DNA of 45,992 bases from a virus: IMG/VR virus record IMGVR_UViG_3300020603_000036, positions 1 through 45,992 of that record; one strand, written 5' to 3'. Positions within the stretch are counted from its first letter, which is position 1, and each line of letters begins with the position of its first letter. The position numbers and the translations under genes are program-made. Shown piece after piece: positions 97 to 41,582 of the stretch. The notes beneath the pieces are model-generated. The model was not told the DNA's origin. It searched no databases and saw only the letters and a program-made list of their open reading frames with translations.

Positions 97-624
97 ATGT
101 ATTTATCAACAATGGAAAGACAGGTCCCAATTACAAGGTTAGGTAAGTTCTTTGGTGGAGAAGACTACGCACTTGATATCGGTATGGGTGAAGAGTGGTT
201 GGAAGGTGACATGAATTTTACTTTGGTGTTATACAAGGTTGATAAGAAAAAGACAAAGACAGATGACGTATACGGAGAAGCTCTACAAGACGGTATTCAA
301 TTCTTACCTCCCGTTGAGTTTAAGGGATATGTTAAGGTTCTTATACCAACAAACACGATGCTGGGTGGGTCAAGAATTACGCAATCTGAACCGGGAAATA
401 TTCAGATTTCAGTTTATCAAAAGACCTTGGACGATTTAGAGATCTCTATAGATTTTGGAGACTACATAGGATATTATGAGACTGAAAATAGAGTCAGATA
501 TTATAGTGTTGTTGATGATGGAAGGGTTAACTCAGACAATAAACACACTTATGGTGGTTACAAGCCGTTCTACAGAACAATAGTTGCCACTTATGTAAAC
601 GATAACGAGTTCAGAGGTTTATGA
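97..624 (+). CDS. Neck protein candidate (gp14-like)
   Basis: 175 residues. I do not recognise it by a strict motif. It lies three genes upstream of the sheath, where T4-type phages keep neck genes 13 and 14. The segment DDVYGEAL followed by beta-rich sequence and an acidic FGDYIGYYE stretch loosely resembles the gp14 region around its FGEDL and GDLIYFP segments; this is inference from memory, not an alignment. T4 gp14 is longer (about 256 residues). The ATG at 97 gives MYLSTM; a second in-frame ATG at 112 gives MERQVP and is possibly the true start, because a TATTTAT promoter-like heptamer at 100-106 falls inside the longer version. It ends in an ATGA overlap with the next gene, so the two are likely translationally coupled. 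It could instead be another head-tail joining or tail-terminator protein. Confidence 0.6.
   Translation: MYLSTMERQVPITRLGKFFGGEDYALDIGMGEEWLEGDMNFTLVLYKVDKKKTKTDDVYGEALQDGIQFLPPVEFKGYVKVLIPTNTMLGGSRITQSEPGNIQISVYQKTLDDLEISIDFGDYIGYYETENRVRYYSVVDDGRVNSDNKHTYGGYKPFYRTIVATYVNDNEFRGL
100..106 (+). promoter_or_regulatory. TATTTAT promoter-like heptamer
   Basis: TATTTAT five bases before the ATG at 112. It belongs to the heptamer set found before many genes here. If it acts as a -10 element the transcript would be nearly leaderless and would start at or next to ATG 112. Confidence 0.3.
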
Positions 625-1043
625 TTTATTTAATTTCAGAATCACAAGAGTCTTTGCTCCGTGACAACATACTTGGTCAAAAAGTTATGGTTTACTATAA
701 TTTACACAAACATACGTTCTCGGTTCAAAAAAATGGTATTGTTGTCTTACACGCCGATTACGTTTATTTGTATGACGTTGAGTTTCGTGTGAGAAAAGGT
801 GGTAGGGAGAGAGTAAGAAAAGATAAATCAAAAAACGTTCATGCATTTGTGATTGGGACAATCGAGGATTATTGTGTGCAAAATTGTGAAAATATTCCAA
901 ACATGGACCAATCGGAAATTATTTCATATGACCCATACATTAATGATTCTTTTGTAATCAAATCTACACAAGAGCCAATATATCACGCATCAGAAGTTGC
1001 TTTGATTAACGCTAAAAATAAAATCCATTTAATAGAACCATAA
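621..1043 (+). CDS. Conserved phage protein of unknown function
   Basis: 140 residues, overlapping the previous gene by four bases (ATGA) and directly abutting the next gene at 1044, so it sits inside a tight neck/tail-completion operon. The N-terminal half has the pattern MVYYNLHKHTFSVQ, then HADYVYLYDVEFRVR, a basic GRERVRKDKSKNVHAFV segment and IGT. I recall this arrangement from small unassigned proteins of other large phages and some bacteria, but no biochemical role is known to me. The C-terminal half is acidic and ends with an ALINAKNKIHLIEP tail. No membrane segment or signal peptide is seen. Its place suggests a virion or assembly role, but the basic central patch would also fit nucleic-acid binding. 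Confidence 0.75.
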   Translation: MIYLISESQESLLRDNILGQKVMVYYNLHKHTFSVQKNGIVVLHADYVYLYDVEFRVRKGGRERVRKDKSKNVHAFVIGTIEDYCVQNCENIPNMDQSEIISYDPYINDSFVIKSTQEPIYHASEVALINAKNKIHLIEP

Positions 1044-2084
1044 ATGCCGTTTCCCAAACAAGTAAAAAAGAAAATTGATTTAGTACCTCAGAAAGAGCTT
1101 TTAGCTCGTAGGGAACAGCTTTTGGATTACATTACAAGAGATGGTACTTTTTTACCCAAGTCTGTTTTACACGCTGATTTGGATAGAGGTATGTTAGATT
1201 TTGTGAAGAAAGATCTTGAGACTGTAACATCAGGAAAGGTGGTGCCAGTTGTTGATATTATAATTACAACTCAGAATTGGTCACAGTTTACTGAGACTTG
1301 GAACTTTAGTGATTTAGATAAAAACGTCAAGGTTCCTTTCATGACTGTTGTTAGAAATCCAGATGTCAAATACGGATCAAATCCATCACTTATTTACAAT
1401 ATACCGAACAGAAGACAGTATTATTTTGCAACAGTCCCAACGTGGGACGGTCAAAGGAAAGGAATTGACATATACACTATACCTCAACCAGTGCCAGTTG
1501 ATATAATTTATAGTCTAAAGTTTATGTGTAATAGGATGCGTGAGTTGAACCAACTAAATAAGATTGTAATGCAGAAGTTTGCTTCTCGTCAGGCTTATAC
1601 TTTTGTAAAAGGACATTTTGTTCCAATCATATTACAGAACGTTTCTAATGAGTCTGTCTTAGAATTAGACAAGAGAAAATATTATATTCAAAATTATGAT
1701 TTTTTAATGATGGGATTCTTAATAGATGAGGAAGAATTTCAGGTAAAACCAGCAATTTCAAGAACGGTCCAACTTATAGAAACAAGTAATTTCAAAAGAA
1801 GAAAGCCAAAAAAGATATATCCAGAGAACGCAACAGAATTTCCTCTGACTTTTAATTTTAGTGTCGGTGAAACAGGATATACTGAGAATTTCAAATACAC
1901 TGCGAATCTAAATTTTAATAGTAAAATAAACCTTGAAACTTGGGATGTCTACCTGAATGACTATTATTATGGTCAAGATGTTTCCACAATTCAAATCACA
2001 TCAGGAGATACGGTAAGATTCGAGATAATACCTGAGGACGCATCTGCAGTGTCATCTTTGGAGTATATTGCTAAACTACTCTAA
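1044..2084 (+). CDS. Tail sheath stabiliser / completion protein (gp15-like)
   Basis: 346 residues. The central part contains PVPVDIIYSLKFMCNRMREL, then a QKFASRQ segment and FVPIILQNVS. This matches the layout of T4 gp15 (PSPIKMIYELSIF, then a QILPYFQP segment and a KIVLMSA strand). gp15 caps the finished tail and joins it to the neck. The order gp14-like, unknown, gp15-like, sheath agrees with T4 synteny (13-14-15-18). T4 gp15 is about 272 residues; this one carries an extra C-terminal beta-rich module (about residues 258-346) after a basic linker KRRKPKK, possibly an Ig-like decoration. The start ATG directly follows the previous stop codon. Its stop overlaps by three bases the stop of the minus-strand gene at 2081-2254. 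Confidence 0.6.
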   Translation: MPFPKQVKKKIDLVPQKELLARREQLLDYITRDGTFLPKSVLHADLDRGMLDFVKKDLETVTSGKVVPVVDIIITTQNWSQFTETWNFSDLDKNVKVPFMTVVRNPDVKYGSNPSLIYNIPNRRQYYFATVPTWDGQRKGIDIYTIPQPVPVDIIYSLKFMCNRMRELNQLNKIVMQKFASRQAYTFVKGHFVPIILQNVSNESVLELDKRKYYIQNYDFLMMGFLIDEEEFQVKPAISRTVQLIETSNFKRRKPKKIYPENATEFPLTFNFSVGETGYTENFKYTANLNFNSKINLETWDVYLNDYYYGQDVSTIQITSGDTVRFEIIPEDASAVSSLEYIAKLL

Positions 2085-2254
2085 TCCTCGCCGTAAAGGT
2101 CAGTCTTTTCTTTGCATCTCTCCATTATGAGGTTTTCCAAGAATTTGTAAATTTTCAAACCCCTCTTATCACAGTATCTTCTCAATCTTTCGTGAGACTC
2201 TATTGAGATTTTTATATTCTTTATCTCTTTGTTCGATTTAGGGGGTGTTTTCAT
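2081..2254 (-). CDS. Small ribbon-helix-helix-like DNA-binding protein
   Basis: 57 residues on the minus strand, ATG at 2254-2252 and TAG at 2083-2081. I translated it by hand: MKTPPKSNKEIKNIKISIES, then HERLRRYCDKRGLKIYKFLE, NLIMERCKEKTDLYGED. The layout (a short beta strand NIKISIES, a helix HERLRRYCDKRG, a turn, then a helix IYKFLENLIMERC) fits a ribbon-helix-helix (Arc/CopG/MetJ-type) fold, known to dimerise on DNA through the strand. It is the only convincing minus-strand gene in the window and fills the gap between the gp15-like and sheath genes. It is convergent with the former (stop codons overlap) and divergent from the latter. No Shine-Dalgarno is seen. A role as a transcriptional regulator is inferred. 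The alternative is a chance ORF, but its composition and fold pattern argue against that. Confidence 0.6.
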   Translation of the reverse strand: MKTPPKSNKEIKNIKISIESHERLRRYCDKRGLKIYKFLENLIMERCKEKTDLYGED

Positions 2255-2332: not shown

Positions 2333-2339
2333 TATTTAT
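2333..2339 (+). promoter_or_regulatory. TATTTAT promoter-like heptamer before the sheath gene
   Basis: TATTTAT 33 bases before the sheath ATG, the same distance as for the tube gene. On the opposite strand the same site reads ATAAATA, close to the T4 late box, and points towards the minus-strand ribbon-helix-helix gene, so it could serve either direction. Confidence 0.45.
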
Positions 2340-2372
2340 GAATAAAATAAATTCAACTAGAACCTTTTAATA

Positions 2373-5300
2373 ATGGCAACAGCACAAAAAGTATTCGTAT
2401 CACCTGGTGTTTACACCAGAGAGACTGATTTATCATTCATATCTCAGAGTGTGGGAGTAACCACTTTAGGTATCGTTGGTGAAACCTTGACTGGTCCAGC
2501 CTTCGAACCAATTTTTATAACAAGTTTCGATCAGTTCCAAGCTCTTTTTGGTCCAACGTCCCCCGAGAAATTTGTTAACACTCAAATACCTAAATATGAA
2601 GCGGCTTACATCGCTAAGTCGTATCTTCAACAATCGAACCAATTGTTCGTGACAAGAGTTCTTGGTCTATCAGGATATGATGCGGGACCCTCTTGGTCTT
2701 TCACAACAATAGCTAATGTCGATCAATCAACAATTGGAACTTCGGGATCTCCTGTTGACTTCGCTTTCACCTTCTCAGGTAACAGTGGTGGAACAATTAC
2801 AATAACTCAGCTCGCGTCTACATCGCCGACAGGGTCAACAGTACCAGACATTATCTTCGATACTCTTGATATACCTTACACTCAGAACGACGGTTCTGTC
2901 TCTTCTTTGAGAGAGGATATTGAATCTCAAATTATGGGTATTGCTAATGCCTCGGGTGCTACTTCAGGAGATAGTTTGTATGTGTACGGGGCTATTGATA
3001 CATCTGATTTTGATCCATCTTCATACACTGTAGAAAACGTGTTTGATTGTAGTGATGTGGATAATTCAACCATAGTATACTCAGCAGAGACAAATGATGA
3101 GTGGTATTATGCAACATTTGACAAACCAGATCTTACAACAAATAGTTACACAGGGTATTCATTCTTAACCTACTGTTCAAAAGTAACTGGTGGAACTTCA
3201 GCAACATATGAAATTTTTTCAGGTGCTATGAGTGGAACTATTTATACCTATTCAGGTACGTCTTTCTCTGAGTACGACAACTTAGTTGTCGCTACTTTGA
3301 GGTCAAGAGGTATATCTCTTTATAACGCGACCACAGCAGGCCCGAGATATCAAGTAACAGGCTCAACAGATCTTGGTTTGGACACCTCTGGGTCATACTC
3401 AGGTCTAACTTCAAACCCGTATGCAACATTCGCGATAACAGGTGAGACATATGAAGGTGATGTTTTCTCAATCGAAACATCATTCCAATCTTCCGATTCC
3501 GAATACATAACCAAAGTATTAAGTGTTTCTAACTTTTCTAAGTCGAGGTTGGATATCCCCGTCTTTGTTGAGGAGATATATCAAACAATGTTGAACTGGT
3601 CATACAATAACGGTTATATCCGTGGTATTGTTCCAGACTTCGTATCACTTCCTGAAGCACGAGGTGGAAATATTTCTTCAATCGCAAATAACTTATTTGA
3701 ATATCAAAGTCCAACAACACCGTATGTGGTTTCGGAACTTAGAGGTAATAAAGTTTACAATCTATTCAAGTTTGTTTCTATTTCTGACGGAGACGCAGCA
3801 AATACACAGGTAAAAATTTCTATCATGAACATGTCGTTCAACAACTCGACATTTGATATCGTGGTTAGATCTTTCTTCGATACTGATGCTAATCCTGTGG
3901 TTCTTGAAAAATTCACGAACTGTACTATGGATCCAGCATCTAACTCATTTGTTGCTAAAAAGATTGGATCGTCTGATGGTGAGTATCCTTTGAATTCGGC
4001 ATACATTATGGTTGAGCTCTCAGAAGAATATCCTATTGATGCACTTCCTTGTGGATTCGAAGGATATAATATGAGAGATTATTCAGGAAATAATCAATCA
4101 CCTATACCGATTTATAAAACAGCTTACTATTTCCCTGGTCAAGTAATTTACAATCCTCCTTTTGGTACGACAAATGGTGGTTCAAATGTTGTTACAAGTT
4201 CGGGTGATAATGTTAGAAGAACATTTTTAGGTTTCTCAAATACATTAGGTATTGATGAATCGCTTTTACAGTTTAAAGGGTATCAAAATATTTCTGATCA
4301 TTGTGATACAAATGTTGAGACACCTTTCAATTATAGAACAAAAGGTTTCCACATGGACTCAGGCGCAACTGTTGTGGAAATTGCAAATACGTTTATGACA
4401 AGTGGTCAATCAGCTTTCGAAGTTGGTGTTGCAAGTTTCAACTCTGAACCTACCTCTCCTACAAACCCTTACTATAGAATCTTTGCTAGAAAATTCACAA
4501 TATGTTTTGCTGGTGGATTTGATGGATGGGATATCTACAGAGAATCAAGAACCAATACAGATGAATATATCTTAGGTGCTTCAGGTTACCTCAAAGGTGC
4601 TTGTCCAACCTCAAGATATCCTACAGCTACTGGTTGGGGTGCTTTCAGAGACTATGCTTATGGTGACTTGGTATCAAATTGGGGAAACAGTGATTTCTAC
4701 GCTTACCAACTTGGTATTGCGACTTTTGCTAATCCTGAGGCTACAAACATTAATGTTTTTGTTTCTCCAGGTATCGATTATGTGAATAACAGCGGTCTAG
4801 TTGAATATGCTGTAGACATGGTTGAGGACGACAGAGCAGATTCTATCTATATCTGTACTACTCCTGACTACGATATGTTCCTTCCAACAACATACGATAA
4901 CATTGGTTTAATTTACCCAACTGAGGCGGTTAACAATTTGGAAGAAACAGGTATAGATTCTAATTACACTGCTACCTACTATCCTTGGATCTTAACAAGA
5001 GACACAGTAAATAACACACAACTTTACATCCCTGCAACGGGTGAGGTTTGTAGAAACTTAGCTTTGACTGACAACATTGCTTTCCCTTGGTACGCATCTG
5101 CGGGTTACACAAGAGGTTTGGTAAATTCAATTAAGGCTCGGATCAAGTTAACTCAAGAGGATAGAGACACTCTTTATCAAGGAAGAATTAACCCAATCGC
5201 GACTTTTTCAGATGTAGGTACTGTAATTTTTGGTAACAAAACACTTCAAATTGCTGACTCTGCTCTTGACAGATTGAACGTTAGAAGACTGTTACTACAA

Positions 5301-5579
5301 GCTCGTAAGTTGATTTCCGCTGTAGCAGTTAGATTGTTGTTCGAGCAAAACGATGAAATTGTAAGACAACAATTCTTGGATAGTGTTAACCCTATTATGG
5401 ACTCAATCAGAAGAGACAGAGGTGTGTACGACTTCCGTGTGACCGTTTCTTCTTCACCTGAGGATCTTGATAGAAATACATTATCGGGTAAGATTTTTCT
5501 CAAACCAACTAAAGCTCTTGAATTTATTGATATTGAGTTTTTGATTACACCGGCAGGTGCTACATTCGAAAATATCTAA
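2373..5579 (+). CDS. 18: Contractile tail sheath protein (gp18-like)
   Basis: 1068 residues. It polymerises around the tail tube and contracts on infection. The N-terminus has the sheath signature SPGVYTRETDLSF (residues 9-21) and VGVTTLGIVGETLTGPAF. The C-terminal sheath domain (about residues 955-1068) contains DSALDRLNVRRLLLQARKLI, then VRLLFEQND, the FRVTVS strand and LKPTKALEFIDIEFLITP, the part that links neighbouring subunits. T4 gp18 is 659 residues, so roughly 400 extra residues lie in the middle, rich in Ser, Thr, Gly and Tyr and beta-like; these probably form surface domains. The ATG at 2373 follows an A/T-rich leader without Shine-Dalgarno. A strong hairpin terminator follows the stop directly, as expected for a highly expressed single-gene late transcript. 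Confidence 0.95.
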   Translation: MATAQKVFVSPGVYTRETDLSFISQSVGVTTLGIVGETLTGPAFEPIFITSFDQFQALFGPTSPEKFVNTQIPKYEAAYIAKSYLQQSNQLFVTRVLGLSGYDAGPSWSFTTIANVDQSTIGTSGSPVDFAFTFSGNSGGTITITQLASTSPTGSTVPDIIFDTLDIPYTQNDGSVSSLREDIESQIMGIANASGATSGDSLYVYGAIDTSDFDPSSYTVENVFDCSDVDNSTIVYSAETNDEWYYATFDKPDLTTNSYTGYSFLTYCSKVTGGTSATYEIFSGAMSGTIYTYSGTSFSEYDNLVVATLRSRGISLYNATTAGPRYQVTGSTDLGLDTSGSYSGLTSNPYATFAITGETYEGDVFSIETSFQSSDSEYITKVLSVSNFSKSRLDIPVFVEEIYQTMLNWSYNNGYIRGIVPDFVSLPEARGGNISSIANNLFEYQSPTTPYVVSELRGNKVYNLFKFVSISDGDAANTQVKISIMNMSFNNSTFDIVVRSFFDTDANPVVLEKFTNCTMDPASNSFVAKKIGSSDGEYPLNSAYIMVELSEEYPIDALPCGFEGYNMRDYSGNNQSPIPIYKTAYYFPGQVIYNPPFGTTNGGSNVVTSSGDNVRRTFLGFSNTLGIDESLLQFKGYQNISDHCDTNVETPFNYRTKGFHMDSGATVVEIANTFMTSGQSAFEVGVASFNSEPTSPTNPYYRIFARKFTICFAGGFDGWDIYRESRTNTDEYILGASGYLKGACPTSRYPTATGWGAFRDYAYGDLVSNWGNSDFYAYQLGIATFANPEATNINVFVSPGIDYVNNSGLVEYAVDMVEDDRADSIYICTTPDYDMFLPTTYDNIGLIYPTEAVNNLEETGIDSNYTATYYPWILTRDTVNNTQLYIPATGEVCRNLALTDNIAFPWYASAGYTRGLVNSIKARIKLTQEDRDTLYQGRINPIATFSDVGTVIFGNKTLQIADSALDRLNVRRLLLQARKLISAVAVRLLFEQNDEIVRQQFLDSVNPIMDSIRRDRGVYDFRVTVSSSPEDLDRNTLSGKIFLKPTKALEFIDIEFLITPAGATFENI

Positions 5580-6494: not shown

Positions 6495-6501
6495 TATTTA
6501 T
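6495..6501 (+). promoter_or_regulatory. TATTTAT promoter-like heptamer before the tube gene
   Basis: TATTTAT, embedded in GATATATTTATAC, 33 bases before the tube ATG. The spacing is identical to that before the sheath gene. Confidence 0.5.
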
Positions 6502-6534: not shown

Positions 6535-7023
6535 ATGGCTGATTTACTAATGAAAATGCCGATACCTTACGAACCGAAACGTCAGAATCGATTTATTCTG
6601 AGATTTCCTTCGACATTAGGTATAAATGAGTGGTTTGTAGAATCTGCTGCAAGACCTCACATTTCAATTGCTTCTACAGAGATTCAATTTTTAAATACAT
6701 CAACATATGTTGCTGGTAGATTCAACTGGCAACCAATCAATGTAACATTCCGAGATCCTATTGGACCATCTGCAGCACAAGCTCTTATGGAGTGGGTTCG
6801 TTTACACGCAGAATCTGTTACAGGTCGTATGGGTTACGCCGCGGGTTACAAAAAAGACATTGACCTTGAAATGTTGGATCCAACAGGAGTAGTGGTTGAG
6901 AAATGGATACTCTATGGTACGTTCTTGACAGATGTTAACTTCAACGCACTAAATTATAGCCAAGATGCGTTGGCAAACATAACTACAACCTTGAGAATGG
7001 ACAGATGTGTTCTTGTATATTAA
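6535..7023 (+). CDS. 19: Tail tube protein (gp19-like)
   Basis: 162 residues, against 163 for T4 gp19. It forms the hexameric rings of the inner tail tube through which DNA passes. The sequence shows the expected pattern: N-terminal IPYEPKRQNRFILRFP, a central GRFNWQPINVTFRDPIGPS strand pair, LMEWVRLHAESVTGRMGYAA, then DIDLEMLDPTGVVVEKWILY and a final SYSQDA-type segment NYSQDALANITTTLRMDRC. The gene is flanked by its own promoter-like heptamer upstream and a strong terminator downstream, so it is probably a monocistronic, highly expressed late gene. The ATG at 6535 gives the family's normal N-terminus. Confidence 0.95.
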   Translation: MADLLMKMPIPYEPKRQNRFILRFPSTLGINEWFVESAARPHISIASTEIQFLNTSTYVAGRFNWQPINVTFRDPIGPSAAQALMEWVRLHAESVTGRMGYAAGYKKDIDLEMLDPTGVVVEKWILYGTFLTDVNFNALNYSQDALANITTTLRMDRCVLVY

Positions 7024-7055
7024 TTCTTTAAAAAAAGTAAAGTCAGTTTATATTT

Positions 7056-7087
7056 AACCGTGGAGACAAAACTCCACGGTTTTTTTT
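7056..7087 (+). terminator. Strong terminator after the tube gene
   Basis: Ten-base stem AACCGTGGAG / CTCCACGGTT (7056-7065 with 7072-7081), loop ACAAAA, then T tract 7082-7087. The next gene's ATG follows the T tract immediately at 7088, so no separate leader or promoter fits between them. Confidence 0.9.
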
Positions 7088-7831: not shown

Positions 7832-7976
7832 TTATAGAAAGTCTCAAATCGATGAATTCTACTATTTGAATACACTTTTGAAGATAACTTGGCAGGACTT
7901 CTTAGTGATGCCAATATTCGTAAGAAAATATCTTTTGGAAAAGTGGGTTGAAGATAATAAAAAAGAGGGAACTTAA
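7794..7976 (+). CDS. gp51-like C-terminal extension in the +1 frame (probable frameshift product)
   Basis: Open frame of 60 codons if counted from TTG 7794; it overlaps the preceding gene by 38 bases in the +1 frame. It has no ATG before codon 39, so independent initiation looks poor. At 7811-7817 the upstream frame reads TTT TTT C; a phenylalanyl-tRNA on the second TTT can re-pair with TTC after a +1 slip, and translation then continues GTC CTT TCT. The joined protein would be 243 + 52 = 295 residues. The extension contains QIDEFYYLNTLLKITWQDFL and MPIFVRKYLLEKWVE. This resembles the short gp51-type segment (hydrophobic helix, then MP--RK--L) that follows gp26 in other T4-like phages, and echoes the lambda G/GT design. 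Confidence 0.65.
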   Translation: MALGWTFFVLSSDYRKSQIDEFYYLNTLLKITWQDFLVMPIFVRKYLLEKWVEDNKKEGT

Positions 7977-7990
7977 AATTGTTCCCTCTT
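7963..7990 (+). terminator. Hairpin terminator across the stop of the assembly-chaperone frame
   Basis: Ten-base stem AAGAGGGAAC / GTTCCCTCTT (7963-7972 with 7981-7990), loop TTAAAATT that contains the TAA stop. Only a weak T-rich tail (CTATTTAT) follows, and that tail is the promoter-like heptamer of the next gene. Confidence 0.7.
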
Positions 7991-7991
7991 C

Positions 7992-7998
7992 TATTTAT
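7992..7998 (+). promoter_or_regulatory. TATTTAT promoter-like heptamer before the tape-measure gene
   Basis: TATTTAT two bases after the hairpin terminator and 14 bases before ATG 8013: a terminator-promoter pair. Confidence 0.5.
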
Positions 7999-8012: not shown

Positions 8013-9800
8013 ATGGCACAGGATGATAAAATAGGATCGGCAAAGGAAGAATTTGAAAAATTCGGATCAATACCAAGCCAAATTGCGGATGCAGTACAGG
8101 CTTTGAATCTATATGCCTCAGATGTAAACCGAACTTTCGGTCAAATGAGACAACGAATTAGTGATGCCGTTCGTGAAATATCTCTCGCAACACCTGAGTT
8201 AAATAAACTCGACGCTACAGCTAAAGACGCAACTGAGACAATAATTGCTGCGTCATCAGCCACTAAAAGAAATGTTGTTGCATCGAGTGAAGCAATCACA
8301 GAATTATTTGCGACTTCGAAAGTGTTAGGAAAAGACATAGAATCTATTGTTAGTACTATGACTGACGTTGGTATTCAGTTTGGAAATTTAGAGGAAAACA
8401 TGATTGGTGCTGTAAATTATGTACAGTCTATAGGAATGAACACCCAACAAATAATGGGAGACGTTGTATACAATGCCGAACTTTTGAATAAGTTCAACTT
8501 TGAAGGTGGGGTAATGGGTCTGACCAAAATGGCCGCTCAGTCAGCAATGTTGAGGGCTAATATGAGAGATGCCGAGAACTTTGCAGATAAGGTCTTTGAT
8601 CCCGAAGGAGCTATCGAAACTGCAGCGGCTTTTCAAAGATTAGGAGTGACTACTGGATTGCTAGGAGATCCATTTGCTTTGATGAACGCATCAATCAATG
8701 ATCCTGCTGGACTACAAATGTCTTTAGCTGAAGTTGCAAAAAAATTCACAGCGTTTGATGAAAAAACGGGATCTTTCAAGATTGACCCAGGTGGTATCAG
8801 ACAGATGAAAGAACTTGCCAAGGCGGCGGGAATGTCTTATGAAAACTTTAGTAAAATGGGACTAGCTGCGGCAAACTCAGAAAGAGTATTATCACAACTC
8901 AAATTTACCGGTAATATGTCTGAAGAAGATAAGATGTACATAGCGAGTATTGCAGAAATGAAGGGAGGGGAATACCAAATTAAGGTCAGAGACGAAAAAG
9001 GAGAAGAAGTATTCAAGAATATTAAAGATTTGAATGAAGAACAACTAAAGCAAGCCATAGAACAAAATAAGAAAGAGCCTAAAACCATGGAGGAAATTGC
9101 AAGGGCTCAAATGGATACAGGAAGAGTCATGGCGGGTGATATTGCATCGATAAGAAACAGAATAGTATATGGAGTTGCAGGTGCTGATGGTTTGAGACAA
9201 CTACCTGAATTGACTAGAAAATTAGGTGAGAGTGTCACAGATGCATTTCAAAAAGTTGCACCTGGTACCGAGGATATACAAAAACTTACAGGTAATGCTA
9301 TAAGTGAACTTGGAAAGACAATGGTAGATGTAATCCAAGGAAACAAATCTTTCCAAGATGTTGGTAAAGAACTTATGGATAAACTGAAAGGATCAGGGGT
9401 GGATATTTCTAAGTTTGCCGATAAGATGGGAACCATACCTGAAAAACTAATGGATTCTCTTTATGAAAGGTTTAAAGATGACAGGACAGAGGTTGGTAAG
9501 ATGATAAGTGGTTATTTGAAACCTGGGTCATCTCGCAGAGGTGAATTCCAAAAAGGAATGTCTTCAACGATGGATCTTGGAAAGATAAGTAAGAACGTGA
9601 ATGTGACAGAAACCAAAAACGTAAATCACGACGGAAAAATTACATTTGAATTCAAGTCTGATGGTAGTATGAACCGAGAAGTTGTACGTTCAATCGAAAA
9701 GTGGATTGAATCACAAGAAGGATCTAAAAAACTTTATACTTTATTATCAGGAATGAAAGATGCAACAGGACGTTCGATATTGGAAAAAGTTGACAAATAA
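8013..9800 (+). CDS. Tape-measure-like tail protein (gp29-like position and length)
   Basis: 595 residues, close to T4 gp29 (590). Assignment rests on position (directly after the gp26/51-like assembly chaperone, before large baseplate genes) and on character: long, largely helical, Ala/Lys/Glu/Met-rich. N-terminal heptad-like segments run through QIADAVQALNLYASDVNRTF and TPELNKLDATAKDATETI. A middle region has small-residue-rich AAQSAMLRANMRDAENFADK and AAAFQRLGVTTGLL. The C-terminus has a short beta stretch (GKITFEFKSDGSMNREVV) and a helical end. The tape-measure protein sets tail length and lines the tube until ejection. If it spans the tube as in T4, a T4-like tail of about 100 nm is implied. 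No catalytic domain was recognised. Confidence 0.7.
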   Translation: MAQDDKIGSAKEEFEKFGSIPSQIADAVQALNLYASDVNRTFGQMRQRISDAVREISLATPELNKLDATAKDATETIIAASSATKRNVVASSEAITELFATSKVLGKDIESIVSTMTDVGIQFGNLEENMIGAVNYVQSIGMNTQQIMGDVVYNAELLNKFNFEGGVMGLTKMAAQSAMLRANMRDAENFADKVFDPEGAIETAAAFQRLGVTTGLLGDPFALMNASINDPAGLQMSLAEVAKKFTAFDEKTGSFKIDPGGIRQMKELAKAAGMSYENFSKMGLAAANSERVLSQLKFTGNMSEEDKMYIASIAEMKGGEYQIKVRDEKGEEVFKNIKDLNEEQLKQAIEQNKKEPKTMEEIARAQMDTGRVMAGDIASIRNRIVYGVAGADGLRQLPELTRKLGESVTDAFQKVAPGTEDIQKLTGNAISELGKTMVDVIQGNKSFQDVGKELMDKLKGSGVDISKFADKMGTIPEKLMDSLYERFKDDRTEVGKMISGYLKPGSSRRGEFQKGMSSTMDLGKISKNVNVTETKNVNHDGKITFEFKSDGSMNREVVRSIEKWIESQEGSKKLYTLLSGMKDATGRSILEKVDK

Positions 9801-9816: not shown

Positions 9817-9823
9817 TATTTAT
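9817..9823 (+). promoter_or_regulatory. TATTTAT promoter-like heptamer before the 1625-residue baseplate gene
   Basis: TATTTAT followed by TATAAAA, 15 bases before ATG 9839. Confidence 0.45.
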
Positions 9824-9838: not shown

Positions 9839-12800
9839 ATGCCGAGTCCATTAGATTACGGTAGTACCGAAGCTTTCAGAAAACGTCTTCTCACAAGAAA
9901 TCTGAGACCTTACAAGTTGGCACCATACGTCGACCCGAGTCAAATTGCGTATTCTACAATACTTACGGACCAATCTGTAGTTGATGCTAGCCCCGACCCA
10001 AGCGGATATGGACTTTTTGTTTTTAACGACAGAATGGCTAGATTCAATGTTTATTCACCTGATACACCATTTGAATACTCGACCCAAACTGTAATAAAAG
10101 AATCCGAGTTTGAACCATATCCAAATTTCAATTCATCTTTCTACTCACCTGTAGATATCTTATTTGATAGAGATCCATTAGGATCTAATGGTCTTTTAAG
10201 TTCTGACTCATTTATTGCTAAGATTGGTGCGACACAACTAAAAAAATTATTCGAAGAAAGAATCGCTCTTGAGATTTATCAAAGAACAGTAGGAAGAGCA
10301 AATATTGCCGGAGCAGCAAGTGGAAGTAACCTATTTGGTGTATTAACTAATAGAATACCTTTGATAGAGCCAAACTATCAAATTACAAGACCAGCAAACC
10401 CACTGATTGCCGCAGCAGATCTGGCGGTTAGACTATCAGGTAGTTACATACCATTCTCACCAATACCAGGATCATATTTCGATACAGAGATTAGACTTGG
10501 TCAACCAACTACAATTGAACAAATTGAGAGAGCTTTTTCATTTATTCCTGAGTCGGGAATTGGGAGATTCTTTGCACGGCTATTAGGTGCACCACAATCG
10601 GGATCCGAAAAATTCCTACTCAATACAGGACCAGGACAAAAAAGTGTTCTATTCAGGAACATAGATATGAACAGGTTCAAGCCTGATTACGACAGAAACT
10701 TTTTCGATAGGCTAGCTGGGGCTATTGTAAGAGGTACTGCAAATAGTTCTAATTATTATGTTGGATCAAGAACATCTGAGCCGAGCATGGTATTTTCACC
10801 TTTGGGTGATATACCAACAGACCATTTTGGAAGAGCGGTACAATCACCTGTTTACGGTCCATCAGAGCTAGCAGAACTTTATGAAGGTGTAGAACAATCA
10901 CCAGGTTTGGGTGCCGCTGGAGTACCTTACGTTGATGGTGGAGGTATTGAAGGAGGTATGACATGGGTTTCACCAAAGTATCGTAAGAACGCTGGAAAAT
11001 ATGTTGGACCAGGTGGAAAAGAGATGGGAGAGGACCCTGATTACGACCCATCAACTTATGATGACTCGAACTCTACGAGATTTAAATTTAGAACAGGTTC
11101 TATATTAGATGAAACACAACGAATTGTAGAAAGCCAACCACCCGGCAAAAAGAAATTTGAGCATGTTGGTAATGCGATAGACCAGGTAAGTAAGGTATTC
11201 AACGATGGATATAAAGAAATGACTAAAGGATCTAAAGTAATTTCTTATGTTGGTGAAATAGGTAATGAGGTTGGTGCTGAGTATTGTAGAGTATTTGCTA
11301 AAGACACTCCATTTTTACAATACAATGACCTACAAAAAACCGACGGTATAACAACCGAGGGAAGAAGATTTTCATACTCAATTTTCGATAAGACATACAA
11401 CCTAAACATTGTTCCAAACAGGAGAAATGGAGGACAAGACTCAAGTAATTTGATTGGTGGTGCAAACGGAGCATACGCTAAAAAGTATATGTTTTCAATT
11501 GAAAACTTGGCTTGGAGAACATCTAAAATGTTTGAGGATTTAGCCGATTGTGAAAAAGGACCAAACGGGGGTAGAGTAATGTGGTTTCCACCGTATGGAC
11601 TTTCCGTGAACGAAAACGTGAGTACCGGATGGAATACTTCAGAGTTTCTTGGTAGGCCAGAACCAATATACACTTATAAGTCCACATCAAGATCAGGCAC
11701 GTTGAATTGGAAAATAGTTGTTGACCATCCATCAATTTTGAATGTGATTGTCAATAAGGTTTTAAAAGATCAGACCAAAAAAAATATCATAGATGGTCTC
11801 ATTAATTCATTTTTAGCGGGTTGTACAAAGTATGACATTTATGAGTTAGCTAAAAAATATGCAACAATAAACAGATCCGATTTGTTTGAGATACAAAGAA
11901 TGTTGACTAATCCATCTGTAACAAAAGAAGAAATAATTGAAGCAAATGCCCAACTTAATGTTGGTATACCTGGAGCAACTAATAAAGTAGGTACACAATC
12001 TGAAACAAAAGATCCGACACCGAATACGTTAGATCAGTATAAAAATTCATCAGTATATTTTGATAACGATATTCCTAAAAAAGGACAAGTCGGTAGTTAC
12101 GGAGGGTATTATACGGTCTATACCTCACCTGCAAACCAAGCCACATATACCAAAAACGCAACAGGACCTAATGGTCAGAAAGATCCGAATGCCAAACAAC
12201 AAGTCGAAAACATGTTTAGGGATGGTGTAATTGCTAGTTTCAATGTGATTAATAATACATCAAACTTTTATAATGAACTCAAAAAGATTTTGGAAGACGG
12301 ATATACTGTTCGCATTGTTATCAAGGGAGGTGCTTCCGCCCCAAATACAGTTAACTATAACAAAGAATTAAGTGAAAGAAGGGTTAAATCTTTGATTGAA
12401 TATTATAAAGAGACAGACTTAAACAAATTCATTACGAGTACCCCCCAAACACTAATTTTCAAGGAAGAATCTGTTGGTGAACAAGGGGTTGTCGAGGTCA
12501 ACAGTAAGGGAGTCCCTGTTGCTGGTGTGACATCCGTGAAAACTTTAAAAACGGAGCAGATTAATTGTACTGATGGTGATGGAAAAAATAACAACGGTGT
12601 TGTTAACAAAGACATTTACACAAGAAATGCGATGGCTTGTAGAAGAGCAACAATTACAGATATTACTGTTGTACCAAAAACATCTTTACCACAAAATAAT
12701 CAGACAACAACACAGACAATAAGTCCAGCCGTACCTGACGGACAAGCACCTCAAGTTGTGACAGGTCCAACCCAAACAAACGTACAAGGACCAACAGAAA

Positions 12801-22047: not shown

Positions 22048-22054
22048 TATTTAT
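22048..22054 (+). promoter_or_regulatory. TATTTAT promoter-like heptamer before the two small genes
   Basis: TATTTAT in TATATTTATAAATAAA, 13 bases before ATG 22068. The same stretch also contains TATAAATA (22052-22059), the T4 late box, in the forward direction. Confidence 0.5.
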
Positions 22055-22983: not shown

Positions 22984-22985
22984 AT

Positions 22986-23016
22986 TTGACAGATACCCCA
23001 AGTTCAACTATATTTT
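22986..23016 (+). promoter_or_regulatory. Host-type promoter for gp32
   Basis: TTGACA at 22986-22991, 17-base spacer, TATATT at 23009-23014: an almost ideal sigma-70 promoter. It also fits the Bacteroidota pattern (TTG near -33 and TAnnTTTG near -7), reading TTG, 20 bases, TATATTTT. The gp32 ATG is at 23052, allowing a leader of about 30 bases. It is the only such promoter I found. Confidence 0.7.
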
Positions 23017-26645: not shown

Positions 26646-26652
26646 TATTTAT
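26646..26652 (+). promoter_or_regulatory. TATTTAT promoter-like heptamer before the helicase gene
   Basis: TATTTATAAA, 29 bases before ATG 26682. It allows gp41 to be transcribed separately from the uvsX operon. Confidence 0.4.
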
Positions 26653-28144: not shown

Positions 28145-28151
28145 TATTTAT
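28145..28151 (+). promoter_or_regulatory. TATTTAT heptamer, distal copy upstream of nrdJ
   Basis: CTATATTTATC, 55 bases before the nrdJ ATG. A second copy lies at 28184. The 142-base region from 28065 to 28206 holds the gp41 terminator and both heptamers and no gene. Confidence 0.35.
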
Positions 28152-28183: not shown

Positions 28184-28190
28184 TATTTAT
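28184..28190 (+). promoter_or_regulatory. TATTTAT heptamer, proximal copy upstream of nrdJ
   Basis: GTATTTATAAAAA, 16 bases before ATG 28207; same spacing class as for the tape-measure and 1763-residue genes. Confidence 0.45.
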
Positions 28191-30274: not shown

Positions 30275-30281
30275 TATTTAT
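30275..30281 (+). promoter_or_regulatory. TATTTAT promoter-like heptamer before gene 25
   Basis: TATATTTATGA, six bases before ATG 30288. No other in-frame ATG is near, so transcription starting 6-8 bases downstream of the heptamer would make a nearly leaderless mRNA. Confidence 0.45.
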
Positions 30282-32661: not shown

Positions 32662-32668
32662 TATTTAT
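32662..32668 (+). promoter_or_regulatory. TATTTAT promoter-like heptamer before the 1763-residue gene
   Basis: CTATTTATGAAA, 15 bases before ATG 32684, opening the second baseplate/tail operon. Confidence 0.5.
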
Positions 32669-32683: not shown

Positions 32684-35600
32684 ATGACCAATTCGTATAG
32701 AATTAAAACTCAAATTGGACAAGACCAAACCCTAAATGTAAACATAGATCAAGAGTACGATTTCTTAGAAATCCTCTCTATGAAGATACAAAGTGAGGAC
32801 ATCTACACAAGAAACTGTGCGGACTATGGTGTTGTTGTTGGTCGTGTAGTTGCAAACGGTGGATACGGCATACCAAACGTAAAAGTTGCTGTTTTTGTAC
32901 CAATACAAGAAGAAGATAGAAACAACGATATTATAACTTCTCTATATCCTTATAAATCGACAGGGGATAAAAACGAAGATGGATTTAGATTCAATCTTTT
33001 ACCATACGAAAAATCTTATTCGACACACGTTCCAACTGGTACTTTCCCGTCAAGAAATGATGTTTTAACAAATCCGACAGTAATACAAGTCTATGACAAG
33101 TATTACAAATACACAGTGAGAACCAACGAGAGTGGGGATTACATGATTATGGGCGTTCCGTTGGGTAATCAAACTGTGTTCATGGATTGTGATCTTTCCG
33201 ATATAGGTGAGTTTAGTTTGACACCACAAGATCTCATAAGAATGGGAGTTGCAAATGAAACTCAACTTAATGGAAATAAATTTGCGTCATCGCCAAACCT
33301 CGCATCATTACCACAGATTATTTCATTACAAGCCAATATAGATGTTTCTCCACTTTGGGGACAACCCGAGGTTTGCCAAATTGCAATCAACAGAGTTGAT
33401 TTTGATTTGAGAGAACAGGCCAACATCGATATCCAACCAACTGCCGTATTCATGGGGTCTGTTATTTCTGCAAGTGACAGAAGAGTACTGAGAAAAAACT
33501 GTAGACCTTCAACTGAAGCGGGTAATTTATGTGACTTAATATCAGGGCCAGGAGAGATCTTATGTATCAGACAGACGGTCGGACAAGATTCCAATGGTAG
33601 GCCAGGTTTAGAAGTTTACGAGTTTGACGGAGGTGCGAAAGTGATAGACGGAGATGGAACTTTTTTAGTCGATTTACCAATGAATTTGGACTATATTGTG
33701 ACCAATGAATTTGGAGAAAAAACAATCTCTTTAGACCCAAATGTAGGTATACCAACCAAAGGAAAATATAGATTTAAAGTAAAATGGGAACAAGACCCTG
33801 ATTTAGGAAAACAAGTAAAGAGGGCATATTATCTAGTCCCGAATGTTAGAGAATATGGTTGGACATCTCCAAATATAGATCCCGCAGATTTCTCGGATCC
33901 TAAAAGTCCAATATACACACCAAACTATAGTGCCAACACACAATGGAACCAATTTCAAAAATCATATGCGTTTTCATTAGATTGGAATGATTATTCAAGT
34001 CCTCAATCAGCAATAAATTGCGAAGATACTTTTTATCAATTTGGATACAATAAAGTTTATACTATATCTCAATTTATAGATGGTTACCACAATGGTGCAA
34101 ACAGAGGAAGGTTTATTGGTATCAAAGAAATTTTAGATTCTGCGTGTGATTCAACTAACAATAGGTTTCCAACTAACGACGGTGTTAAGAATTTCGATCT
34201 TATATTCATTATTTTTAACTTCTTTTTTTCATTTATCCTACTTCTTTTATTCCCATTGTTGGTCAATGTTCATATTGTTGCATTCCTGTGGCCTATACTT
34301 AAAATTCTTATAACATTTGTATATGGAGTAATTGCTACATTCATTTTCGTCCTCTGTAAAATTATTGATGCTATCCCATTCGTGAATATAAATTGTCCAA
34401 AACCGCCATCATTTAAAGATATATTCAATTCGCTTGGAAATCCATTCAAGAATATTTCTTTACCTACAATAATTTATCCTGACTGTGAGTTATGTAGTTG
34501 TAAAGAAGAATCACCCGAGGAAAATGCAAGCGCTGCAGCCTTTATACAAGAGTCATTAAAGACAACGTCACTTACGCTCCTGATTGATTCGCCAAATCCC
34601 GTCAGTTATGGAAATATATTTGACGAACAATATTGTCAAGATGATCCTTGGTTCAAATATTATTCAGCCAACTATTTGAATTTAGAAGATCAAGGAATTG
34701 CATGTAGAATCGAAACAGTAGAAAATGCCATGGCTTATCAGCAACAAAATATTCAAAGAATCGTTGCAGGTAATAATCAGGGAATAGTTGGACAAAGAAC
34801 ACCCGCGACAATATGGATGCCTGTAGGAGACCAAACAAACAGACCAGTATGTTCTATGGACCTTACTTTGTCAGAGAGATTGAATCTCTTCAATATGAAG
34901 GCTAACTATTTCAATTCGACAGGGGGATGGAATCAAGTTAGAACATACGTTGCCTCTGACATAACCGCAAACTCAGGTTTATTTCATTATGATAATACAA
35001 TAACAATTCTTTGTGATGCGGCATCTGCCGAACAGTTTATCACAGGAAGAATGATGACATTCCAAAACCCTTTTAATTCTTTGGATCCGAACACTAGTCA
35101 AGCAGAAACTAATTTCTCTGGATTTAGTTCCTCTACAGGTTATGCCAAAAATTTGAGAGCGGTGACTGTAAATTATGCAAACCCTGATTTTCCAGATCAG
35201 TCACTGAGTCAACAATACATCGTGAATCAAAGTGCGGATACTATACAGAACTGTTGGGTAGGATCTATCATCACAGTTGAAGACGGTGAAAAATGGTTTT
35301 ACACTGATTGTGATGGGGTATACCATTCTGGTGATACCCCAACTACAGGTTCTATTTGTGTTAATGATCTATTCCCATACGAAGGTGTTAATATTACCAC
35401 AGCGACCTGTTCCAATCCTAAATATTTGATGTATACCAAGGCTAAGTCGGATTGTGAGTATTTCCAAGTGATCACAGCAATGACTTATCAAAATTTCGCC
35501 TCATTGAATCCTCCCACATTCTCAGGTCAAAAAAGTTTGAATGAGAGGTATATTGGTGGTACCATGTATCTATGGGAAGAGCATCACCGCAGAACCGGTT

Positions 35601-37975
35601 TCTTGGGCTTAGGTTCAGGTGCTAAAACTTGGTTACCTAACACAGCGACAAGACCTTTCTTTGCAATCCCTGATAATAAAGAAATAGTAGTTGTAATACT
35701 ACAGAGAGGAGTTGATCCAAATAGTACAAGACAGACGACAACTGTTGATATATCAAGAATATGCGGTCAGAACTACGGATCTGTTTTAGTAACATCAAAA
35801 TACAAGTTGAATATACCTATTCAACCTGGATTGGTCTTACCAAGACATGATCAATATCAATCCAATGAAGACAATCCTATATTTTTTGATTCTTACATAT
35901 TTGATACTGGTAATAATTACTCGGGTTATACGACAAATATGCACACAAACTATTCTTCTTTGGATTCAACCAAAGTTGGTTACAACGGTTTTCAAGTATC
36001 ACCCCAAAATACATATTCAATTTTGACACCAACCCACATTAACATAAACACAGGTAGTGGTGGTGGATATGTGAAATCGAACACTTCGGTCAACATTTTT
36101 GGAATGTCGAGCTATCCAATTGTAATCAGACAGCCAAATTATCTTTCTGATGCATTCGCATGGGATCCTTGGTATCGAATCTTCGGGTCTTATTATAGTA
36201 ACCAACCGTGGTCGCAAGGTAAAAAGATGAATGGTTACTGGAATGATGAGTATGTTGAGGGTGGATCGTATTTCTTTTCATCTGTTGGAGGTAGTTTGGA
36301 AGAGGGTTTAGCTTCAATTAGATACGATAGATTTGTTTATTTCTCACCTGCATATTCAACGGCAACAACATTGGATGTTCAGGCAAGAACACAAAAAATT
36401 GTGATGAGAACTGATCGACTACCAACATCGACATCGAGATCTGGTTATCTTAACAATACCTACCTTTTACACCAAAACACAAACTTTGCATTTTATTTTA
36501 TAACAGACGAAGGTTTAGTAGAATCATATGATGCGGAAGGGTCTTCATTCTTAATTAATGATGCGGCCGAAGAACTAAGTCAGTATGAAGACCAATTTGC
36601 ATCAACTTTTTCATGTCAAGGGTTAGTACCACTCAAATGTTATTCAGGGGATTCTGAAACTTTTGGGATTTACCCCAAAACAGATAAATGCTATAAAAAA
36701 ACAGTTATAAAAGGTGGGTGTTATGTCTTCGTTAGTAAAGTTATACTTTCACTTCCAAACGACTTCAAACAACTTGCCGAGTTCAAAGCTAGAACTAGAG
36801 TTAATTTTGCGGCATGTAGAGGTGTTTTTGGACATACTTTTTTAAATAACTGGGTTAATGGAGTGTTATACCATTTCCCATTTAGGAATTTGAGATTTTT
36901 CAAATCACCTAAAGATCCTGTAGATCCTAATGGACCATATAATGAATATTGTAATGACGTGGTTCTATTACATAATCAAACAAACAATTTCTACTACAGA
37001 TCATCACCGTTCAATGGAACAACATTCGTAGGTAAACAAAGGACTGGATCACGTGGAAGAAACGACAAAGAAATACTTTTTCCAACCACAATTATGGATA
37101 TGGGACCGAGAGACGCCTTCACTCAAGAAGTTACATTGAACGCTGATTTCTTTGGGTATAACATGAACAAGGTACCGACAACTTCATTCAACAATCCTCA
37201 AGATATATTGACATTATTCATATTATCGAGACAAGTCAATTCAAGTTGGCTTGCAAATATTATTGGACTAGGAGATGGATCCGTGAATTCGTTTTTCTCA
37301 AGAACAAAATCTAAAATTGACGGTGACTATGCACAAATGATTTCAATTAATTCAGAGATAGGGGTGCAAGAATTCAATTTTGAGGCTTACACCGCTCAGT
37401 CGGGTTCTAATGTAAATAATCCATTCTATATTGGTCAAGATAGATCTAAGGAACCTGTGATGGGTATATTTTTTTCTTCAGAAACACAGACTAGAGATTT
37501 AATATCTCCGAGAAGGTTGATAAGAAATGATAACGTTAATTATAACAATGCTGTTTACGATTATTTGGGTAGTAATTCCCAACTGATACCATACTACAGT
37601 TGGACCACCAAAGATAGTAATGCAATATTTGGAACAGAGAAAAATGAATGGAAAACAAATACCATTCAAAAAAGTTATTACCAAAGATTTAATCGTACAG
37701 ATATTAACTCAAATTATTTTATGGGTGAAAACCCTAAGGCGGACTTTATGAGAGGATACATCTATAATAGAAGTAATATCCTGTTTCAGCCTAACACATT
37801 GAATGAAGCATATCAATTTGAGGGTGATAAGAATACATCCGATTCACCGAGCTATGATCCTGTAAATTTAAATACTTATTTCACTGTTGGTCTTCCTTAT
37901 CACTTCTACTTCGGATTAGGTGTTGGAAAGTCATCCATGAATAGATTTATTAAAAAATACGTTACAACAGAATGA
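32684..37975 (+). CDS. Giant tail/baseplate protein with membrane-hairpin segment
   Basis: 1763 residues, family not identified. The N-terminus has VVVGRVVANGGYGIPNVKVA, then TNESGDYMIMGVPLGNQTVF, a carboxypeptidase-regulatory/Ig-like beta sandwich pattern. Residues about 503-562 are strongly hydrophobic (FIIFNFFFSFILLLLFPLLV, then AFLWPILKILITFVYGVIAT and FIFVLCKI), enough for two or three membrane helices. They are followed by a Cys-rich stretch (NINCPKPPSF, PDCELCSCKEE). The remaining 1150 residues are beta-rich with scattered Cys and Trp, like receptor-binding or fibre proteins. It heads a coupled set of tail genes (ATGA overlap with the next). Membrane helices in a presumed virion protein suggest insertion into a host membrane at infection; this is inference. 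No frameshift or truncation is visible. Confidence 0.75.
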   Translation: MTNSYRIKTQIGQDQTLNVNIDQEYDFLEILSMKIQSEDIYTRNCADYGVVVGRVVANGGYGIPNVKVAVFVPIQEEDRNNDIITSLYPYKSTGDKNEDGFRFNLLPYEKSYSTHVPTGTFPSRNDVLTNPTVIQVYDKYYKYTVRTNESGDYMIMGVPLGNQTVFMDCDLSDIGEFSLTPQDLIRMGVANETQLNGNKFASSPNLASLPQIISLQANIDVSPLWGQPEVCQIAINRVDFDLREQANIDIQPTAVFMGSVISASDRRVLRKNCRPSTEAGNLCDLISGPGEILCIRQTVGQDSNGRPGLEVYEFDGGAKVIDGDGTFLVDLPMNLDYIVTNEFGEKTISLDPNVGIPTKGKYRFKVKWEQDPDLGKQVKRAYYLVPNVREYGWTSPNIDPADFSDPKSPIYTPNYSANTQWNQFQKSYAFSLDWNDYSSPQSAINCEDTFYQFGYNKVYTISQFIDGYHNGANRGRFIGIKEILDSACDSTNNRFPTNDGVKNFDLIFIIFNFFFSFILLLLFPLLVNVHIVAFLWPILKILITFVYGVIATFIFVLCKIIDAIPFVNINCPKPPSFKDIFNSLGNPFKNISLPTIIYPDCELCSCKEESPEENASAAAFIQESLKTTSLTLLIDSPNPVSYGNIFDEQYCQDDPWFKYYSANYLNLEDQGIACRIETVENAMAYQQQNIQRIVAGNNQGIVGQRTPATIWMPVGDQTNRPVCSMDLTLSERLNLFNMKANYFNSTGGWNQVRTYVASDITANSGLFHYDNTITILCDAASAEQFITGRMMTFQNPFNSLDPNTSQAETNFSGFSSSTGYAKNLRAVTVNYANPDFPDQSLSQQYIVNQSADTIQNCWVGSIITVEDGEKWFYTDCDGVYHSGDTPTTGSICVNDLFPYEGVNITTATCSNPKYLMYTKAKSDCEYFQVITAMTYQNFASLNPPTFSGQKSLNERYIGGTMYLWEEHHRRTGFLGLGSGAKTWLPNTATRPFFAIPDNKEIVVVILQRGVDPNSTRQTTTVDISRICGQNYGSVLVTSKYKLNIPIQPGLVLPRHDQYQSNEDNPIFFDSYIFDTGNNYSGYTTNMHTNYSSLDSTKVGYNGFQVSPQNTYSILTPTHININTGSGGGYVKSNTSVNIFGMSSYPIVIRQPNYLSDAFAWDPWYRIFGSYYSNQPWSQGKKMNGYWNDEYVEGGSYFFSSVGGSLEEGLASIRYDRFVYFSPAYSTATTLDVQARTQKIVMRTDRLPTSTSRSGYLNNTYLLHQNTNFAFYFITDEGLVESYDAEGSSFLINDAAEELSQYEDQFASTFSCQGLVPLKCYSGDSETFGIYPKTDKCYKKTVIKGGCYVFVSKVILSLPNDFKQLAEFKARTRVNFAACRGVFGHTFLNNWVNGVLYHFPFRNLRFFKSPKDPVDPNGPYNEYCNDVVLLHNQTNNFYYRSSPFNGTTFVGKQRTGSRGRNDKEILFPTTIMDMGPRDAFTQEVTLNADFFGYNMNKVPTTSFNNPQDILTLFILSRQVNSSWLANIIGLGDGSVNSFFSRTKSKIDGDYAQMISINSEIGVQEFNFEAYTAQSGSNVNNPFYIGQDRSKEPVMGIFFSSETQTRDLISPRRLIRNDNVNYNNAVYDYLGSNSQLIPYYSWTTKDSNAIFGTEKNEWKTNTIQKSYYQRFNRTDINSNYFMGENPKADFMRGYIYNRSNILFQPNTLNEAYQFEGDKNTSDSPSYDPVNLNTYFTVGLPYHFYFGLGVGKSSMNRFIKKYVTTE

Positions 37976-40489: not shown

Positions 40490-41565
40490 TGCCCGATTAC
40501 AATTACATTATATCACCCGAAGTTATCAGTGGAGATCTGTTCACGGTCAACGTATCAGGCAGCCCTGTGGGAGTTTATTCAGCAATGACACAGGTTCTTA
40601 GTTCGGGACCAGGTGGATCTTCACTTTTGACTGGATTAACAATACCCATACTTATAACTGAAAATGTTGTAGATTGTGGATACTACTCACCTTTTGATGG
40701 TGCTGTGCACCAAAAAGATGTTGTAACAAATTTCATCTTTTCATCCACGACATCTAACCCATACATTTATAATGTTTACAACACATCAGACGAGTTCAAA
40801 AAGTTTATTGAGTTATCAACCTATACAATTGATTGGGGAGATGGATCATCCCCAAATAGTTTCAATCAACTCACCCCCGCATCAATATCTCATCAATACC
40901 CCACGGTTGTGAGTGCTTATACAATTACTTTGACTCAAAATAATCCTTGGGGTACAAATATTGTTAAAAAGGAAGTAGTTACCCCATATAGAATAGCAAC
41001 AATTATCAATCCAAACGGAACCGCATTTTTTGTATCAAACACAGGAAGTTGGACCTTTACACCTGTAAGTTACAATTTCATTTTTTCAGGTGATGCTGAA
41101 AACAACATACAGGATCAAGTATCTTCAACGTTTACAACTGTACCATATACGGTCTCGGGTGTAACAAATTCGAGAATACAAGAGCTTGCTCAATATGGTC
41201 CTCAGAAATTTATCGTTGGGGCACCCGTAATTAAAGACGGAGGTATATTCGGAGTTATAAATAATAGGTCCCCATTATTTACAGCATACACAATACACAA
41301 TGTGGATTACTACGACTTTGCCAATGGAGAAACTAAATTCTTCGTCCAAAGTTCAGGATTCACTGAAAATGAACTAACAGCACAATTCTTTTTCAAGAAT
41401 CCTGCATTACAGAAGGCTGTGGGAGATGCGGAGATTGTTACTAATATCTACATAGAAAGGGGAAAGAACTCCGCTTACGAACAAATACAAAGACTTGGAG
41501 AGGTAGATAACTTGGGAGACTTAATCAATTATGGTTACAAGTTTTTCAACGTTGAAACCAAATAA
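40489..41565 (+). CDS. Tail protein with PKD-like domain
   Basis: 358 residues. Residues about 111-170 form a PKD/Ig-like module: STYTIDWGDGSSPNSF, then SISHQYPTVVSAYTITLTQN; the WGDG turn followed by the H-Y-----Y-ITL strand is the PKD signature. PKD domains are common in extracellular adhesins and some phage tail proteins, where they act as spacers or sugar-binding supports. The N-terminal part (about 1-100) and the C-terminal part (about 200-358) are beta-rich and unassigned. It starts within TAATG shared with the previous stop. A 35-base gap with a TATTTAT heptamer follows, so this gene ends the operon begun at 32684. Confidence 0.75.
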   Translation: MPDYNYIISPEVISGDLFTVNVSGSPVGVYSAMTQVLSSGPGGSSLLTGLTIPILITENVVDCGYYSPFDGAVHQKDVVTNFIFSSTTSNPYIYNVYNTSDEFKKFIELSTYTIDWGDGSSPNSFNQLTPASISHQYPTVVSAYTITLTQNNPWGTNIVKKEVVTPYRIATIINPNGTAFFVSNTGSWTFTPVSYNFIFSGDAENNIQDQVSSTFTTVPYTVSGVTNSRIQELAQYGPQKFIVGAPVIKDGGIFGVINNRSPLFTAYTIHNVDYYDFANGETKFFVQSSGFTENELTAQFFFKNPALQKAVGDAEIVTNIYIERGKNSAYEQIQRLGEVDNLGDLINYGYKFFNVETK

Positions 41566-41575
41566 ACAGATAAAC

Positions 41576-41582
41576 TATTTAT
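41576..41582 (+). promoter_or_regulatory. TATTTAT promoter-like heptamer before the last operon
   Basis: CTATTTATAGAAAA, 18 bases before ATG 41601. Confidence 0.5.

Follow-up and report, generated by a model that had tools for sequence, protein, structure and literature searches.

The 45,992-base IMG/VR contig IMGVR_UViG_3300020603_000036, the whole of which we call the window, is a stretch of myovirus DNA in which the heptamer TATTTAT recurs immediately upstream of genes. We are highly confident that TATTTAT is a phage-specific promoter, as a first-pass annotation of the same DNA had proposed: the heptamer occurs upstream of genes throughout related genomes, is orientation-specific, is conserved at orthologous genes and largely excludes a host-type promoter. 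Our fuller explanation, which we regard as likely, is that TATTTAT would be the single recognition element, lacking a -35 element, of a promoter class driving mainly structural and other middle/late transcription units. A phage sigma factor, for which a conserved 249-aa protein is the best candidate, would redirect host RNA polymerase to it, while some of the remaining units would use the host sigma-A promoter TTTG-N18-20-TAnnTTTG. A literature search on TATTTAT(A) and phage late promoters returned nothing relevant, and we did not find this promoter described in the literature searched.

TATTTAT precedes genes on the coding strand of the window

Every called gene of the window is on the + strand, and 97.2% of the sequence is coding, in agreement with the roughly 97% given by the first-pass annotation. 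The + strand carries 14 copies of TATTTAT, 12 outside genes and two within them (3239 and 40207), and all 14 positions reported earlier were exact. The - strand carries one intergenic copy (22053, an overlap of TATTTATAAATA) and three genic copies. The total of 18 shows no overall excess over the 19.4 expected in shuffles. The 12 + strand copies, however, lie within only 1,325 intergenic bases, for which 3,000 dinucleotide shuffles gave a mean of 0.81 copies and a maximum of 5. The excess is a matter of place and strand, and a count over the whole window would mislead.

The upstream copies are listed below, with gaps measured from the end of the motif to the ATG and with conservation scored over orthologous starts of each window gene gathered from related contigs. 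The copy at 100 sits within the longest open reading frame (ATG at 97); we count it as upstream because orthologues support a start at the in-frame ATG at 112. The gaps match the 5-33 nt described earlier, with the distal nrdJ copy as the exception. The further claim that several copies directly follow terminators held clearly at 7992 and, by eye, at 28145, and did not extend to most copies. Sheath, tube, helicase and baseplate wedge assignments are PHROG matches.

100..106, + strand: TATTTAT, 5 nt before the likely start of gene 112-624; kept in 36 of 40 orthologues
2333..2339, + strand: TATTTAT, 33 nt before the tail sheath gene (2373-5579); 59 of 59 orthologues
6495..6501, + strand: TATTTAT, 33 nt before the tail tube gene (6535-7023); 55 of 56 orthologues
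7963..7990, + strand: terminator-like hairpin whose tail runs into the TATTTAT at 7992
7992..7998, + strand: TATTTAT, 14 nt before gene 8013-9800; 15 of 15 orthologues
9817..9823, + strand: TATTTAT, 15 nt before gene 9839-14716; 21 of 21 orthologues
22048..22054, + strand: TATTTAT, 13 nt before gene 22068-22292; 23 of 23 orthologues
26646..26652, + strand: TATTTAT, 29 nt before the DnaB-like helicase gene (26682-28064); poorly conserved, being present in 9 of 47 orthologues
28145..28151, + strand: distal TATTTAT, 55 nt before nrdJ (28207-30069); 26 of 37 orthologues have a copy, mostly the distal one
28184..28190, + strand: proximal TATTTAT, 16 nt before nrdJ
30275..30281, + strand: TATTTAT, 6 nt before the gp25-like baseplate wedge gene (30288-30749); 37 of 37 orthologues, with a spacing of 4-6 nt
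32662..32668, + strand: TATTTAT, 15 nt before gene 32684-37975; 26 of 26 orthologues
41576..41582, + strand: TATTTAT, 18 nt before gene 41601-42506; 6 of 6 orthologues

The motif is enriched, oriented and conserved in related phages

Relatives of the window phage comprise hundreds of IMG/VR contigs, the largest of about 320 kb, and because some exceed 300 kb the window probably represents part of a genome of jumbo-phage size. Gene calls for these relatives came from a simple longest-ORF script rather than a trained gene finder. Motif discovery on 632 of their upstream regions returned TATTTAT as the strongest 7-mer (400 copies against 33 expected), and the reverse complement was a minority, with 87 copies in the same regions. 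In 1.71 Mb of related coding DNA there were only 220 sense copies. Many of the 632 regions are orthologues and not independent, and single-genome tests were therefore added. In G013, a 321-kb relative, 101 of 208 upstreams carry the motif (105 copies against 9.5 expected), including those of the portal and tail-fibre genes. TATTTAT is also the top upstream 7-mer of Microcystis phage Mel-JY01, which is among the closest cultured phages as judged by tail sheath and nrdJ. With the same pipeline, the known late box was recovered, through its ATAAATA core, in sense orientation in the T4 late region, and no TATTTAT was found upstream of genes in the tested region of S-CAM9. No enrichment was seen in the first 49 kb of Tenacibaculum phage PTm1. 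In Flavobacterium phage immuto, TATTTAT occurs in 15 of 67 upstreams and the chief upstream word is TATTTAGGTATCA.

Orientation bears directly on how the motif relates to the T4 late promoter. Noting that TATTTATA is the exact reverse complement of the T4 late box TATAAATA, the first-pass annotation had suggested a possible late promoter in inverted orientation. Nine contigs, of which several have genes on both strands, hold 215 intergenic copies: 204 point toward the next gene and 11 away. In those 204, whichever genome strand the gene is on, 5'-TATTTAT-3' reads along the coding strand of the gene that follows. A turned-round T4 box would fire away from that gene and is not supported. The recovery of ATAAATA in sense orientation from T4 itself, and the use of NATAAATA by cyanophages (PMC2984593), also argue against an inverted box, which we consider scarcely credible. 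The reverse complementarity with TATAAATA is best taken as a coincidence between two AT-only words.

Conservation of the motif is nearly all-or-none. At structural units, all or almost all orthologues retain TATTTAT, and most within-operon genes have none; the motif persists while the encoded proteins are often just 40-65% identical and the remaining upstream sequence drifts. Helicase orthologues without TATTTAT keep TATTTAA(T)-type words, which could be a version of the element with lower strength or different timing.

A single element with a putative start site downstream

Aligned copies follow the pattern M-TATTTAT-A-N3-AAA, in which the A located 6 nt past the motif shows 87-95% conservation. 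From this pattern we infer that transcription starts about 6 nt downstream of TATTTAT, where the expected site holds the conserved A, which would place the motif at about -12 to -6. No second conserved block corresponding to a -35 element was found at -30 to -35 in the aligned upstreams. Short conserved intergenic words can also be operators, and TATTTAT might then be the binding site of a phage repressor or activator that controls a different promoter. The alignments, however, hold no second conserved element at a fixed distance, and the motif is the only shared block, is oriented and has a start-site-like A downstream; we judge an operator very unlikely.

The spacing between motif and ATG ranges from 4 to 55 nt across genes and is nearly fixed for each gene (in groups of 4-6, 13-20 and 33-36 nt). 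The shortest spacings, such as the 4-6 nt before the baseplate wedge gene, imply a leaderless or nearly leaderless mRNA if the predicted start site is correct.

TATTTAT and host-type promoters form two classes

The sigma-A promoter of Bacteroidota consists of TTTG at -33 and TAnnTTTG at -7 (PMC6847099). TTTG-N18-22-TAnnTTTG is overrepresented in upstreams lacking TATTTAT, most often with a spacing of 18-20 (18 against 0.6 expected), whereas a host-type promoter accompanies TATTTAT in only 2 of 239 upstreams. The two elements are thus largely mutually exclusive and define two promoter classes, and host-type promoters were rejected as an explanation of the TATTTAT genes on the basis of this near-exclusion. 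General sigma-70 promoter scans gave results at or below chance. The window holds one host-type candidate before the gene for its single-stranded DNA-binding protein (SSB):

22985..23016, + strand: host-type promoter candidate TTTG-N20-TATATTTT, before the SSB gene (23052-23900)

Among SSB orthologues, 19 of 29 carry TTTG-N17-22-TAnnTTT and 8 of 29 carry TATTTAT. If transcription begins at the conserved A, TATTTAT shares the register of the -7 element of the Bacteroidota sigma-A promoter, the presumed host promoter, and likewise starts with T-12 and A-11; it has neither the TTTG at -33 nor the TTTG with which the -7 element ends.

These results also bear on whether TATTTAT acts in RNA, as a processing site or translation signal in 5' leaders. 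The motif does lie in putative leaders at a modest distance from the ATG, and Shine-Dalgarno-like sites are nearly lacking, being found at 4-7% of starts in phages of this clade versus 72% in the T4 late region. An RNA element would nonetheless have to accommodate a spacing that differs among genes and is nearly fixed within each, the lack of TATTTAT at most within-operon genes, its near exclusion of the host-type promoter and the copy that abuts a terminator, where fresh initiation is needed. We give this possibility only a small chance, and favor a promoter.

A gp55-like protein is the favored reader

The first-pass annotation suggested that a divergent gp55-like sigma factor might be encoded elsewhere in the genome. 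A candidate does exist in related genomes and not on the window fragment: a protein of 248-249 aa, encoded in four related contigs, that weakly matches the T4 gp55 family profile (PHROG 234, E of 1e-5 to 2e-3 per genome) and is not confidently recognised by PHROG or Pfam. Alignment with gp55 (hhalign) gave a P of 5e-5 and a probability of 67% over the sigma region 2 signature. AlphaFold models show two helical domains (pLDDT 67 and 74, pTM about 0.42), and nearly all of the best 50 PDB fold matches are sigma factors, mostly with domains 2 and 4. The models suggest that the protein seems to carry sigma domain 2 and a domain-4-like C-terminus in one chain.

The candidate co-occurs with the motif. 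G001 (the contig behind loci L066 and L213) carries both the sheath gene and the gp55-like gene, and loci fetched by the gp55-like gene alone, down to 62% identity, have TATTTAT in 129 of 258 upstreams. Mel-JY01 has the motif together with a gp55-like sigma homologue and has no PF04542 match; a scan with the Mel-JY01 sigma found no relatives. A phage multisubunit RNA polymerase was rejected as the reader, as no beta-subunit match was found in 7 related records.

Four relatives (G003, G013, G014 and G016; loci L301-L304) encode a different, RpoD-like sigma of 265-267 aa with regions 1.2, 2 and 4, a clear sigma by its PF04542 and PF04545 matches at about 1e-15, and two of them, G003 and G013, are TATTTAT genomes. 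This protein might read the promoter instead. Such sigmas normally use a -35-type element, however, and none is seen, and Mel-JY01 has TATTTAT and the gp55-like protein with no PF04542 match. We consider the RpoD-like sigma a rather unlikely reader and, because of Mel-JY01, lean toward the gp55-like 249-aa protein, with moderate confidence.

Several observations weigh against our explanation. The gp55 match of the 249-aa protein is weak (E of 0.016 in a PHROG library search), its fold matches have E of 0.02 or more and the low pTM of its model adds to this. Its gene is absent from the 46-kb window and present only in related genomes, and a distant phage, LR756508, has a sigma homologue with no TATTTAT enrichment in the 100 kb tested, so that homologue and motif do not always co-occur. 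The RpoD-like sigma of the relatives could be the reader. Copies 4-6 nt before an ATG would need leaderless mRNAs, which are rare in Flavobacterium (5.5%; PMC9723704). Finally, many G013 copies lie in a region of small genes, beyond structural neighborhoods. The timing, which we read from gene content, is affected by this last point: the earlier designation of the promoter as late is probable, given its universal presence at structural genes, yet TATTTAT also precedes nrdJ in most orthologues. Because it is also frequent among the small genes of G013, "middle/late" is the safer term.

Comparison with known phage transcription systems

T4 late promoters are read by gp55 with gp33 and gp45, and gp55 plus gp33 have been termed a split sigma (PMC2988020). 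Like them, TATTTAT consists of one AT-only element, located about one helical turn ahead of the predicted start (here the conserved A), has no -35 element and stands at structural genes (sheath, tube, wedge, portal and fibre), though also at nrdJ and small genes; the enzyme would likewise be the host RNA polymerase, directed by a gp55-like phage sigma, here a candidate. Unlike T4, the sense word is TATTTAT rather than TATAAATA, and the modeled candidate seemingly has domains 2 and 4 in one chain rather than split between gp55 and gp33. No match to the gp45 clamp family (PHROG 223) was found in 11 related contigs or Mel-JY01, although a divergent clamp is possible. Most likely, the TATTTAT system resembles the T4 late switch but differs from it in sequence and in how its reader is built. 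The late promoter of cyanophages S-PM2 and Syn9 (NATAAATA; PMC2984593) is T4-like and is also upstream of structural genes; unlike TATTTAT, it keeps the T4 sequence.

Phage sigma factors are already known from group 2 jumbo phages (as described in passages of PMC7824862), which, according to the same passages, have no RNA polymerase of their own, have two sigma types including an RpoD-like one, and have Bacteroidota among their hosts, features that the phages described here probably share. Those passages give no promoter sequence, and PTm1 of that group lacks TATTTAT enrichment.

More tentatively, the candidate might be an unsplit late sigma that joins a gp55 reading domain and a domain-4/gp33-like flap-binding domain in one protein, with its specificity moved from TATAAATA to TATTTAT, as a separate solution to T4-type late transcription in Bacteroidota jumbo phages. 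Should this doubtful but attractive idea be true, the question in the T4 literature of why the late sigma is split would gain a natural counterpart. The promoter would provide a readable code for abundant, mostly uncultured, very large aquatic phages, making transcription units predictable from sequence in hundreds of contigs, and Mel-JY01 and Microcystis are a cultured pair that appears to share the system.

The window phage and other elements

The window encodes a myovirus tail (sheath, tube and baseplate), SSB, a UvsX-like recombinase, a DnaB-like helicase and a B12-dependent ribonucleotide reductase. It belongs to a large, common clade of aquatic jumbo myophages that probably infect Bacteroidota. 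The host assignment is based on the host-type promoter class, the scarcity of Shine-Dalgarno sites and the recombinase, for which Flavobacterium phage immuto is the sole isolate relative found. A host search with the RpoD-like sigma against genome contigs returned distant Firmicutes-type matches only.

The nrdJ gene (28207-30069) is 69% identical to that of Mel-JY01 and 62-63% identical to those of Vibrio and Oceanospirillum phages, some copies of which carry the annotation "recombinase". It is much closer to those phages than neighboring genes are (helicase, 28%), which suggests that nrdJ has been exchanged between unrelated phages.

At 7049-7087 the window contains a terminator-like hairpin whose T run ends directly before the ATG of the hub gene at 7088. 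The hairpin is maintained in orthologues through compensatory changes (CCGTGGAG/CTCCACGG, CCATAGGG/CCCTATGG and CCGTAAAG/CTTTACGG) and follows an almost unvarying TATATTTAAC. Its role may be that of an attenuator or a leader hairpin.

Two cultured phages carry further repeated upstream elements. Mel-JY01 (L202-L205) has two more repeated words, TTCTTGCATAC and CAACCTAACAGGA, perhaps marking an early promoter class, and immuto (L415 and L416) has a long repeated element around TATATTTAGGTATCAATAATT, possibly a promoter class of its own.

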